Positions 25,703 to 27,956 of a stretch of 64,000 bases of DNA are shown piece after piece (the stretch's first letter is position 1; each line of letters begins with the position of its first letter). The DNA comes from Prochlorococcus sp. AG-402-N10 (GTDB lineage Bacteria > Cyanobacteriota > Cyanobacteriia > PCC-6307 > Cyanobiaceae): contig QCIU01000007.1 of assembly GCA_003216465.1 (NCBI GenBank), positions 1 to 64,000 of the forward strand. Direction: 5' to 3'. The position numbers and the translations under genes are program-made. Under the pieces are notes generated by a model that did no database searches, was not told where the DNA came from, and worked only from the letters and a program-made list of their open reading frames with translations.

Positions 25703-27193
25703 TTAATAAAGATTACTAATAAATCGCTCAGCTATTTTTAGATGACCGTTTAATTTTTCTGTACTCATTTTATCTAGATTCCTTGTTAACATTGCTAGTC
25801 TGTATTGTTTTCGAAAATAAGTTTCATTATCTTTTATAAATTTCCAAAATAAACCATCCCATATTAAACACCAAGGACCACTTTTATAATCAGACATTTT
25901 TTTAACATAGTTTGAGCTAGAAATATAGGGTTTTGTTGAAAAGATACCCCCATCACTAAACTGACTCATTCCATAAATATTTGGAACCATTACCCAATCA
26001 TAAGAATCTATAAACATTTCCATAAACCATTTATAAACCTGATCAGGATGTATCCGACATAGAAGCATAAAATTACCAATAACCATAAGTCTCTCGATAT
26101 GATGGCAATAACCGTATTTAATAATATTATTAATCACGCTATCTACTGGCACGATTCCTGTAGTTCCTTTATAAAAAGATTCAGGCATTGGCTTATTTTC
26201 AAAATTCCAAAAATTGGTAGTTCGCATTTTTGTACCGTATTTTTCATAAACCAGACATATAAATTCTCTCCATCCAATAATTTGCCGTATAAAACCTTCT
26301 AAAGAGTTAATTGGAACTTTGTTTTTTTCACCATAAGCTAATGCTTGATTTATAACTTCATTTGCATTTAATAAACCACTATTTAAAAGAGGGGAAAGTA
26401 AACTGTGCCACAAAAAAACTTTTTCTTTACCAATTGCATCTTCATAATCTCCAAATAAAAATATTTTATTTTTTAAGAAATCATGAAGCCATTTATCTGC
26501 TTCTTGGAAAGTAGTTGGATATATAAAATAATTACTTTCACCTATGCAATCAATATTAAAATCCGAAATTATCTTTTCAGCCTGAATAACAAACTCATTT
26601 TTTGGTATTTTCGGGATTTTAGGAATATTTATAGTCTTAGGTAATTTCTTTCTATTTAATTCATCAAAACTCCATTTACCTTCTTGAGGTGATCCATCAG
26701 GATTAACTAATATATTTAGACTTCTTCTTTGGTTCGAATAAAATCCACTCATCAAAGGTTTTTTTGTATTTGATTTAAAAGACTCTCTTAAGTCTTCATT
26801 AGTAATAAACATTGGAGATTTAAACACTTTTAATTTAAGATTATTAGCGTCAACAAATTTATTTATCCTCTTCATAATTAGAAAATCATGAGGATTAATG
26901 ATATTTATCTTTTGATATTTTGCTTCTAAGTGTCTTGATAAATAATCAATTGTGGAAAAATTATTTTTATTATCTATGTAAAAAACTTTATGTCCTGAAT
27001 TTTCTAGATATTTTTTATATGCGAGCATCGAGGCCTTATGAAAAATTAATTTGTTCTTGTGATTAATTAACTTATGAAATTTATCATTACCAAAAAATAA
27101 TGAATCCTCTATCATCAAAATTTCGCAATCTAATTTTAAGATTGGACTATCTCTAAATAGTTGATTTGGGAAAATGATTGATATTTGATTCAT
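25703..27193 (-). CDS. FeS-BCP-type cryptochrome/photolyase-related protein with degraded Fe-S site
   Basis: 496-residue member of the deoxyribodipyrimidine photolyase-related family (prokaryotic 6-4 photolyase/PhrB/CryB group). The N-terminal Rossmann domain begins ISIIFPNQLF. The FAD-domain hallmarks are IIGWRE (305-310), HHIERLMVIGNF (364-375), DWVMVPNIYGMSQFSDGG (399-416) and KMSDY (432-436). Family members carry four Fe-S ligand cysteines. Here only C442 fits the last one: the stretch after MSDY is shortened (KSGPWC) and lacks the CxxC pair, and no Cys is seen where the first ligand is expected (about 347-352). Repair or photoreceptor activity without the cluster is untested. It directly follows the DUF2256 gene. 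Confidence 0.85.
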   Translation of the reverse strand: MNQISIIFPNQLFRDSPILKLDCEILMIEDSLFFGNDKFHKLINHKNKLIFHKASMLAYKKYLENSGHKVFYIDNKNNFSTIDYLSRHLEAKYQKINIINPHDFLIMKRINKFVDANNLKLKVFKSPMFITNEDLRESFKSNTKKPLMSGFYSNQRRSLNILVNPDGSPQEGKWSFDELNRKKLPKTINIPKIPKIPKNEFVIQAEKIISDFNIDCIGESNYFIYPTTFQEADKWLHDFLKNKIFLFGDYEDAIGKEKVFLWHSLLSPLLNSGLLNANEVINQALAYGEKNKVPINSLEGFIRQIIGWREFICLVYEKYGTKMRTTNFWNFENKPMPESFYKGTTGIVPVDSVINNIIKYGYCHHIERLMVIGNFMLLCRIHPDQVYKWFMEMFIDSYDWVMVPNIYGMSQFSDGGIFSTKPYISSSNYVKKMSDYKSGPWCLIWDGLFWKFIKDNETYFRKQYRLAMLTRNLDKMSTEKLNGHLKIAERFISNLY

Positions 27194-27324: not shown

Positions 27325-27561
27325 TTATAATTTTCTTGTATGAGTAGATTTAAATCTAGTCGAATCTGTAAGTTTCATATGTTTCGTCTTTCTCCCTGAA
27401 ACTCTTTTTCTCCAAACTTTGAATGATTTTGGCTTAAGATTATTTCTCATGATTTTGATAGCATCATCTTCCTTTAAACCAAATTGGTGTTCAATCGCTT
27501 CAAAAGGTGTTCTGTCTTCCCAACACATCTCAATAACTCTATCTATATCAATAATTTCCAT
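27325..27561 (-). CDS. TIGR03643 family protein
   Basis: 78-residue basic protein. The conserved N-terminal block IDRVIEMCWEDRTPFEAIEHQFGL, then EDDAIKIMRNNLKPKSFKVWRKRVSGRKTKH, matches the TIGR03643 (DUF2805) family of unknown function. The first half looks like a helix-turn-helix and the second half is strongly basic, so nucleic-acid binding is plausible but not shown. It lies inside the photolyase cluster, 2 bp after the DUF393 gene and 3 bp before DUF2256. Confidence 0.82.
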   Translation of the reverse strand: MEIIDIDRVIEMCWEDRTPFEAIEHQFGLKEDDAIKIMRNNLKPKSFKVWRKRVSGRKTKHMKLTDSTRFKSTHTRKL

Positions 27562-27563
27562 AT

Positions 27564-27956
27564 TTATTGCTTACATTCAGAGGTGCAAAGTTTTTCAATA
27601 TTCGATCTGCCGGTAATTTTAAGTCTATTTTTTGCCCAATATTGGTAAAATATTTTTAGAACTGGAGCTAGAATTTTAATTTTCAAAGGATAGTAAATCC
27701 ATCCTAGTCCTATTAACTCGTATGCATAAGCTAATACGTCTAGCCCTTTGATAATAACTCCATTTTCAGAAATCCCATGAAGATTTGACATTGCTTCTGA
27801 ATATGAAATATCCCTATACATACTAGGTTTATAACCATCGTCATTGATATCTACAAAGTTAATTCTATTCAACAAGTCCTTCTTTTTTAAGAAATTAGTT
27901 TCTCTAACACATAAAGGACAACCACCATCAAATAAAAAATTAAATTTATCTTTCAT
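27564..27956 (-). CDS. DCC-family (DUF393) thiol-disulfide oxidoreductase-like protein
   Basis: 130-residue protein with the family start FLFDGGCPLCVRE (D10, C13, C16), a thioredoxin-fold redox-like motif. The rest (SYSEAMSNLHGISENGVIIKG and VLAYAYELIGLGWIYYPLKI) is typical of DUF393. Its thiol partner is unknown. It is the first gene of the four-gene photolyase cluster; about 220 bp of non-coding DNA lie upstream. In that setting it may keep a partner reduced, which is inference. Confidence 0.82.
   Translation of the reverse strand: MKDKFNFLFDGGCPLCVRETNFLKKKDLLNRINFVDINDDGYKPSMYRDISYSEAMSNLHGISENGVIIKGLDVLAYAYELIGLGWIYYPLKIKILAPVLKIFYQYWAKNRLKITGRSNIEKLCTSECKQ

Follow-up and report, generated by a model that had tools for sequence, protein, structure and literature searches.

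A cluster-free PhrB-type photolyase of Prochlorococcus and a candidate partner of its class

The phr2 gene of Prochlorococcus sp. AG-402-N10 encodes a PhrB-type photolyase that lacks all four cysteines holding the 4Fe-4S cluster in its relatives, and the homologues that share this lack form one clade. Residue conservation and a structural model make it very probable that the product is a light-driven (6-4) photolyase that works as PhrB does, only without the cluster. The protein found in the window, by which we mean the whole stretch of 64,000 nucleotides that was analysed, is most likely a further copy of a described type, the cluster-free branch being already known in print.

The phr2 protein and its missing cluster ligands

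An earlier note on this DNA had placed a photolyase/cryptochrome gene at 25703-27193. The reading frame is real, but its strand is minus, with the initial M at 27193 and the stop at 25703, and it is open throughout; the motifs quoted there, HHIERLMV, DWVMVPNIYGMSQFSDGG and MSDYKSGPWC, are all present in the protein. We reject a sequencing or frameshift artefact because the frame is open and the same pattern recurs in 153 other rows of our alignment. The gene and the sites discussed below are:

25703..27193, minus strand: phr2, predicted to encode a 496-aa cluster-free prokaryotic (6-4) photolyase of the PromaPL/Phr2 type (from ORF, Pfam, fold matches and tree)
26147..26149, minus strand: codon of P349, which aligns with the first cluster ligand of PhrB, C350
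26099..26104, minus strand: H364-H365, of which H365 corresponds to the catalytic H366 of PhrB; His in 154/154 cluster-free and 131/131 cluster-bearing rows
25907..25927, minus strand: Y423 to Y429, corresponding to Y424 (lesion binding) and Y430 (repair efficiency) of PhrB, invariant in both groups; roles as given in the available part of PMC4619345
25868..25885, minus strand: K437-C442, the shortened cluster loop, 10 residues missing relative to PhrB, with W441 nearly invariant

Two Pfam domains exceed their curated cut-offs in the product, PF04244 (DPRP; residues 6-224, E 6.1e-44) and the FAD-binding domain PF03441 (FAD_binding_7; residues 306-432), the pair that marks prokaryotic (6-4) photolyases. 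PF00875, the N-domain of CPD photolyases and likewise of class I/III, class II and eukaryotic (6-4) photolyases, was absent from the Pfam matches to this protein, with PF04244 in its place. The closest named relative comes from the Prochlorococcus single cell AG-686-M10 (86% identity), and the orthologues of P. marinus MIT 9201 and HNLC2 are 75% and 67% identical, respectively. In its own genome assembly (97.6% complete) phr2 is single-copy and accompanied by one further photolyase gene; viral contigs yielded no relative to a single-protein query, which finds close relatives only.

The four cysteines of FeS-BCP enzymes (C350, C438, C441 and C454 of PhrB), completely conserved in the FeS-BCP set of PMC3204975, have no counterpart in the phr2 protein. 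In an alignment covering PhrB residues 3-505 they face P349, K437, a gap and L443, and an alternative alignment over residues 43-489 sets K437 beside the gap rather than opposite C438. The C350 position lies 15 residues before the HH pair, where the earlier note had rightly seen no cysteine, and the segment equivalent to PhrB Y437-Y460 is shorter by 10 residues, slightly fewer than the dozen or so that had been estimated. Ligand loss had also been recognised, but as three of four, because C442 was taken as the fourth ligand. This residue adjoins the C454 position, one place away, and is Cys in 111/154 cluster-free rows: 77/77 counted as cyanobacterial (a set that includes L077) and 34/77 others (among them the cyanobacterial L198), with Gln, Thr, Glu and similar residues elsewhere. 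Because C442 is not conserved outside some lineages, we discard it as a surviving ligand; there is no conserved ligand, and all four positions are gone.

Across the aligned homologues the pattern is all-or-none. The 285 aligned rows, which include the window and PhrB, comprise 131 with all four cysteines, 154 with none and 0 with one to three. These numbers refer to rows and should not be read as separate events, because L183-L192 share genomes with ten earlier loci and many of the Prochlorococcus sequences are nearly identical to one another. Among the cluster-free rows the first ligand position is Pro in 152/154 and W441, directly before C442, is Trp in 153/154, while cysteines occur elsewhere, at C379 in 150/154 and at C363 in 101/154. 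The absence of Tyr460 and Tyr437 has been tied to the absence of the cysteines (PMC4619345, in the part available), which does not fit our rows: Tyr460 is kept in 40/154 and Tyr437 in 91/154 of the cluster-free ones.

Six rows had been dropped before this count, five as incomplete (L010, L091, L179, L196 and L242) and one, L274, as a PF04244 N-domain continuing in frame into an unrelated C-terminal part; L001 and L032 are the window itself, and L031 is the other photolyase of its genome. A family draw from 201 Cyanobiaceae genomes yielded matches in 117 at a threshold of E 1e-30, and 70 of these were aligned. A scan of genome contigs for the patterns HHIERLM and QIIGWREF returned 80 loci, 79 of them counted and all of these cluster-free, but the patterns favour the cluster-free clade and the loci therefore give no frequency. 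Further draws with PF04244 matched 42/146 cyanobacterial, 49/148 Bacteroidota, 24/149 Planctomycetota and 37/140 Myxococcota genomes, the last three phyla being those of the genomes that carry the named loci L129 (Arenibacter echinorum), L149 (an uncultured Pirellulaceae bacterium) and L152 (a Myxococcales bacterium). Cluster-free proteins made up 9 of the 37 Bacteroidota matches aligned (of 49), 3 of 23 readable Planctomycetota rows (24/24 aligned), 4 of 35 readable Myxococcota rows (36/37 aligned) and 5 of 38 readable cyanobacterial rows (40/42 aligned), the matches left unaligned at first being the low-scoring ones.

Several rows are unusual in their own right. L288 (G391) is a divergent cluster-free form whose first ligand position is Leu and whose loop differs, and L130 and L234 are cluster-free with insertions where the cluster loop is deleted. 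Phr2 proteins L035, L036, L038 and L041 (genomes G034, G101, G123 and G075) lack the linker between the N-domain and the FAD domain, approximately window residues 197-225 (27 alignment columns in L035), and their 470-aa frame is still open. In L274 (G657, Myxococcota draw) the PF04244 N-domain is in frame with a non-photolyase C-terminal part that by eye resembles a carotenoid desaturase, either an assembly chimera or a real fusion. A 'Rhodobacteraceae' MAG contig (L077) carries a Prochlorococcus-like phr2 with 75% identity, and a 'Microbacteriaceae' MAG contig (L112) one that by eye resembles the Verrucomicrobiota rows; both contigs are probably mis-binned.

Predicted repair activity

Eight residues of PhrB, H366, L370, M410, Y424, Y430, Q306, and D179 and D254, which we take to be the Mg2+ site, are all present in the phr2 protein and are identical in 154/154 cluster-free and 131/131 cluster-bearing rows. 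The available text of PMC4619345 reports that H366A loses repair, that Y424F loses both lesion binding and repair, that Y430F keeps 30% of repair and that L370M has less of it. Conservation of this order is strong evidence, at the level of sequence, for unchanged (6-4) chemistry, and since the repair residues are identical in both groups, ordinary (6-4) repair without the cluster appears the likelier activity, ahead of a modified repair, of CPD repair and of signalling.

The predicted fold agrees. An AlphaFold2 model built from a 60-row alignment has a mean pLDDT of 95.8, a pTM of 0.94 and no residue below 70, and its closest matches are solved members of the PhrB type, which fill the first ten VIA-align rows and the first eleven Foldseek rows. 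The ten VIA-align entries, a fold shared by PhrB (Agrobacterium), CryB (Rhodobacter), SePhrB (S. elongatus) and the Caulobacter and Vibrio enzymes, score Z 43.6-49.1 over 476-488 residues, whereas the next row is a class II photolyase at Z 29.7 over 347 residues; in Foldseek the first eleven rows reach E 1.4e-31 or better and the list then falls to 1.2e-11. Class II and class I/III photolyases share the photolyase fold and FAD domain, but at Z 29.7 or less and 10-16% identity among the matches listed, and eukaryotic (6-4) photolyases appear in the Foldseek list only, with 15-17% identity and E-values no better than 1.2e-11. FeS-BCP enzymes are 28-30% identical to the phr2 protein and differ from it in having the four cysteines and the longer loop. 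The altered repair or signalling foreseen in the earlier note thus runs against both lines of evidence, the invariant repair residues and a model far nearer to PhrB-type enzymes than to the other photolyases listed.

In the mechanism that we propose, FAD in its reduced form, excited by blue light, would pass an electron to a (6-4) lesion held by Y423, with H365 as proton donor and D177/D252 as the Mg2+ site, and the electron would return to FAD after repair. The cluster of PhrB is thought to be structural, and it has been assumed to be needed for stability because cysteine mutants were insoluble or not expressed (PMC4619345, in the part available). In the phr2 protein the 10-residue deletion, the Pro and W441, to which we ascribe a putative structural role, may close the pocket, so that the fold would no longer need iron.

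Besides the cluster, the sequence points to changes in the antenna pocket and in the outer electron-transfer residue. PhrB and the phr2 protein have Trp390 in common along with the repair residues and the Mg2+ Asp pair, but the outer carrier W342 of PhrB is Tyr in the window and in 122/154 cluster-free rows; as W342 and W390 both carry electrons in PhrB, photoreduction may differ from that of PhrB. Position 368 is Glu in 154/154 cluster-free and 9/131 cluster-bearing rows. From PhrB to phr2 the antenna pocket changes by L8F, G9P, D10N, E37F (phr2 F33), I51H (H52) and R108L (L105), K47 being kept, and the chromophore is therefore probably not bound as in PhrB. FO synthase, which would supply an 8-HDF antenna, was not seen among the ten Radical-SAM matches in the 97.6% complete genome. 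NCBIfam assigns six of these: two are lipoyl synthases and the others BioB, ArsS, HemW and an slr0320-type protein. Only BioB gave additional matches to CofG and CofH, with scores well short of the cut-offs; the remaining four Radical-SAM matches were assessed by visual inspection alone.

Other functions have been suggested or can be envisaged. Cluster loss would have gone with a switch in lesion type if phr2 encodes a CPD photolyase, as the available text of PMC9426592 proposes from the missing cysteines, from the lower UV-B survival of Synechococcus RS9916 after loss of phr2 and from the UV-B protection that phr2 gave to E. coli, where it also protected against UV-C. That proposal takes the cluster to be indispensable for a (6-4) photolyase, which misfits PromaPL, cited in the same text as a cluster-free (6-4) photolyase; moreover, the six repair residues and both Asp are invariant across cluster-bearing and cluster-free rows, and fold and sequence place phr2 among the PhrB-type enzymes. 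The residue table speaks against the published suggestion, although it does not settle the matter, and we regard a CPD photolyase as quite unlikely here. We find it very improbable that the protein is a cryptochrome-like regulator that repairs little DNA or none: this would accord with the changed outer Trp and antenna pocket, and CryB of R. sphaeroides, a cluster-bearing relative, is cited as a regulator (PMC9178010, in part), yet neither the lesion-binding Y424 nor the repair His varies, and UV protection by RS9916 phr2 has been reported (PMC9426592, available text).

It might also be supposed that a metal or cluster is still bound, either by C379, C442 and C363, given their frequencies among the 154 rows, or by the four cysteines (CxxC...CxxxC) of the DUF2256 protein encoded 2 nt upstream of phr2. 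C442 and C363, however, are not conserved outside some lineages, and DUF2256 accompanies cluster-bearing photolyases too, in the FeS loci of Bacteroidota and in Caulobacter and S. elongatus, which hold both families; it is therefore no substitute for the cluster, and we consider binding by any of these cysteines extremely unlikely.

Single clade and proposed spread of the cluster-free form

Cluster-free relatives of PhrB have been described before, as far as the available parts of the sources go. PromaPL of P. marinus has no cluster and groups with the FeS-BCPs (PMC9178010), and both PMC9178010 and PMC9426592 cite it as a cluster-free (6-4) photolyase. PMC9426592 treats picocyanobacterial Phr2 as the counterpart of PromaPL and states that most Phr2 proteins are without the cysteines. 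All four are likewise missing from subgroup M, which has 20/110 sequences and spans several lineages (PMC9178010), and the cysteines are absent from about 7% of 464 PhrB homologues (PMC4619345). The window protein shares with PromaPL/Phr2 the genus, the PhrB-like N-domain and the absence of cluster cysteines, and we found no difference in kind; it is likened to PromaPL by description and is matched in the same way to subgroup M, as a PhrB homologue without the four cysteines from one clade that spans several lineages.

The cluster-free form is one clade, as the earlier note's 'cluster-free branch' implied. A quick unrooted tree of 99 rows with less than 62% mutual identity, from which the ligand columns were left out, separates its 36 cluster-free rows from the others by a branch with an SH-aLRT of 100, and a careful unrooted tree of 52 rows, six of them cluster-bearing, gives the clade 100/100 support; the letter make-up departs from the model assumption in 53/99 rows of the quick tree and 21/52 of the careful one, in which L220, L053 and L288 have long branches. 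In both trees the nearest cluster-bearing neighbours are L210 and L215 of the Bacteroidota draw, taken in the careful tree from its six cluster-bearing rows. Cluster-free rows come from at least five phyla, namely Cyanobacteriota, Bacteroidota, Verrucomicrobiota, Planctomycetota and the Myxococcota draw.

Within the careful tree, Prochlorococcus and marine-type rows stand beside Verrucomicrobiota rows, and a second Cyanobiaceae type (L037, L040, L044 and L052) stands beside rows of the Planctomycetota and Myxococcota draws. A constraint that unites the two Cyanobiaceae types, defined with the tree already in view, lowers the log-likelihood by 88.7 units (p-AU 3e-57). The cluster-free gene thus appears to have reached the Cyanobiaceae at least twice. 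Cluster-bearing and cluster-free genes also replace each other within genera (G062/G113 in g6, G030/G099 in g30 and G045/G081 in g45). We propose that the cluster was lost once, long ago, and that later transfers carried the cluster-free gene among Bacteroidota, Verrucomicrobiota, Planctomycetota, Myxococcota and cyanobacteria; the loss may have been allowed by a need to save iron, or because the cluster could simply be dispensed with. Neither tree is rooted, so the choice of loss over gain depends on the published view of the cluster as ancestral, and the FeS cluster is viewed as ancient in the available part of PMC4619345.

DUF2256 and the array upstream of phr2

On the minus strand phr2 is the last gene of an array in the order DCC1-like, TIGR03643/DUF2805, DUF2256, phr2, with gaps of 2, 3 and 2 nt. 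The upstream genes are:

27564..27956, minus strand: DCC1-like thiol-disulfide oxidoreductase (PF04134, E 6.9e-24), 130 aa, first gene of the array
27325..27561, minus strand: TIGR03643/DUF2805 (PF10985), 78 aa; E 8.8e-36 to TIGR03643 and 1.7e-32 to PF10985
27196..27321, minus strand: DUF2256 (PF10013, E 1.6e-20), 41 aa, a small protein of metal-binding type with CxxC...CxxxC and a TTG start

DUF2256 belongs to the TRASH superfamily (PMC4047054) and its domain is frequent among very small bacterial proteins (PMC11796252), according to the available parts of these sources. Among loci with at least 1.2 kb upstream, the DUF2256 motif occurs at 58/118 cluster-free and 12/96 cluster-bearing ones, counts that are a description rather than a test because flanks are unequal and many loci are near-copies; the positive cluster-free loci are those of Prochlorococcus, where it lies directly upstream, and of some Bacteroidota.

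Whole genomes show a close co-occurrence, given here as raw genome counts, with kinship addressed by the genus-level table of Cyanobiaceae only. Among 201 Cyanobiaceae genomes DUF2256 is present in 106/117 with a PhrB-type gene and in 3/84 without one. The control against photolyases of other kinds, made in Cyanobiaceae only, compares 106/117 with 3/26 among the 143 genomes that have any photolyase match, so that within this family the link is to the PhrB type and not to photolyases at large; by genus the figures are 20/20 and 1/11 among the 31 genera with any photolyase. Among 148 Bacteroidota genomes DUF2256 occurs in 46/49 with a PhrB-type gene and in 4/99 without, two of these four being weak matches. 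The two genes are unlinked in 24 of the 46, being separated by more than 100 kb or placed on separate contigs. Their distance is below 300 bp in 10 genomes and no more than 6 kb in another 12, and these 22 linked pairs all share one strand, with DUF2256 upstream in 21. In 14 control genomes DUF2256 was found only in Caulobacter vibrioides and S. elongatus, both of which have PF04244, and Haloferax volcanii, with PF04244 but without DUF2256, is a counter-example.

Individual loci vary in arrangement. In L345-L348 of the Bacteroidota draw, DUF2256 is followed by a second photolyase (FAD_binding_7 in 4/4, PF00875 in 3) and then by the PhrB-type gene; DUF2805 precedes the photolyases in L345 and comes after them in L347. 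Beside the Arenibacter photolyase, a DUF2256 match (G341:C1:807734-807835) contains an in-frame TAA and may therefore be a decaying copy.

Because cluster-bearing and cluster-free photolyases are both involved, the co-occurrence is not about the missing cluster. It may be, and we put this forward tentatively, that DUF2256, probably together with TIGR03643/DUF2805, is a dedicated partner of the whole PhrB-type class, with or without the cluster. Candidate roles for such a partner include a DNA-lesion, cofactor-loading or regulatory subunit, and the array in the window, in this reading an operon, would be a candidate for the partnership in its tightest form. Exposure to UV, as a shared ecological factor, and common descent may account for some of the co-occurrence. 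No report of a link between DUF2256 or DUF2805 and photolyases, and no paper on TIGR03643, was found in the literature reached, which covered few subscription journals.

The type to which phr2 belongs is known, and the candidate partnership with DUF2256 is the part that merits further attention. Our results lend new weight to the cluster-free branch in that no partial ligand set occurs among the 285 rows and the origin is single, in that the repair residues are strictly conserved, against the published CPD guess for marine Phr2, and in that the co-occurrence with DUF2256 is strong and unreported in the literature reached. The branch is a natural experiment on the function of the 4Fe-4S cluster, in which the same active site can be compared with and without it. 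If the partnership is true, DUF2256 would gain its first testable role, in DNA photorepair.
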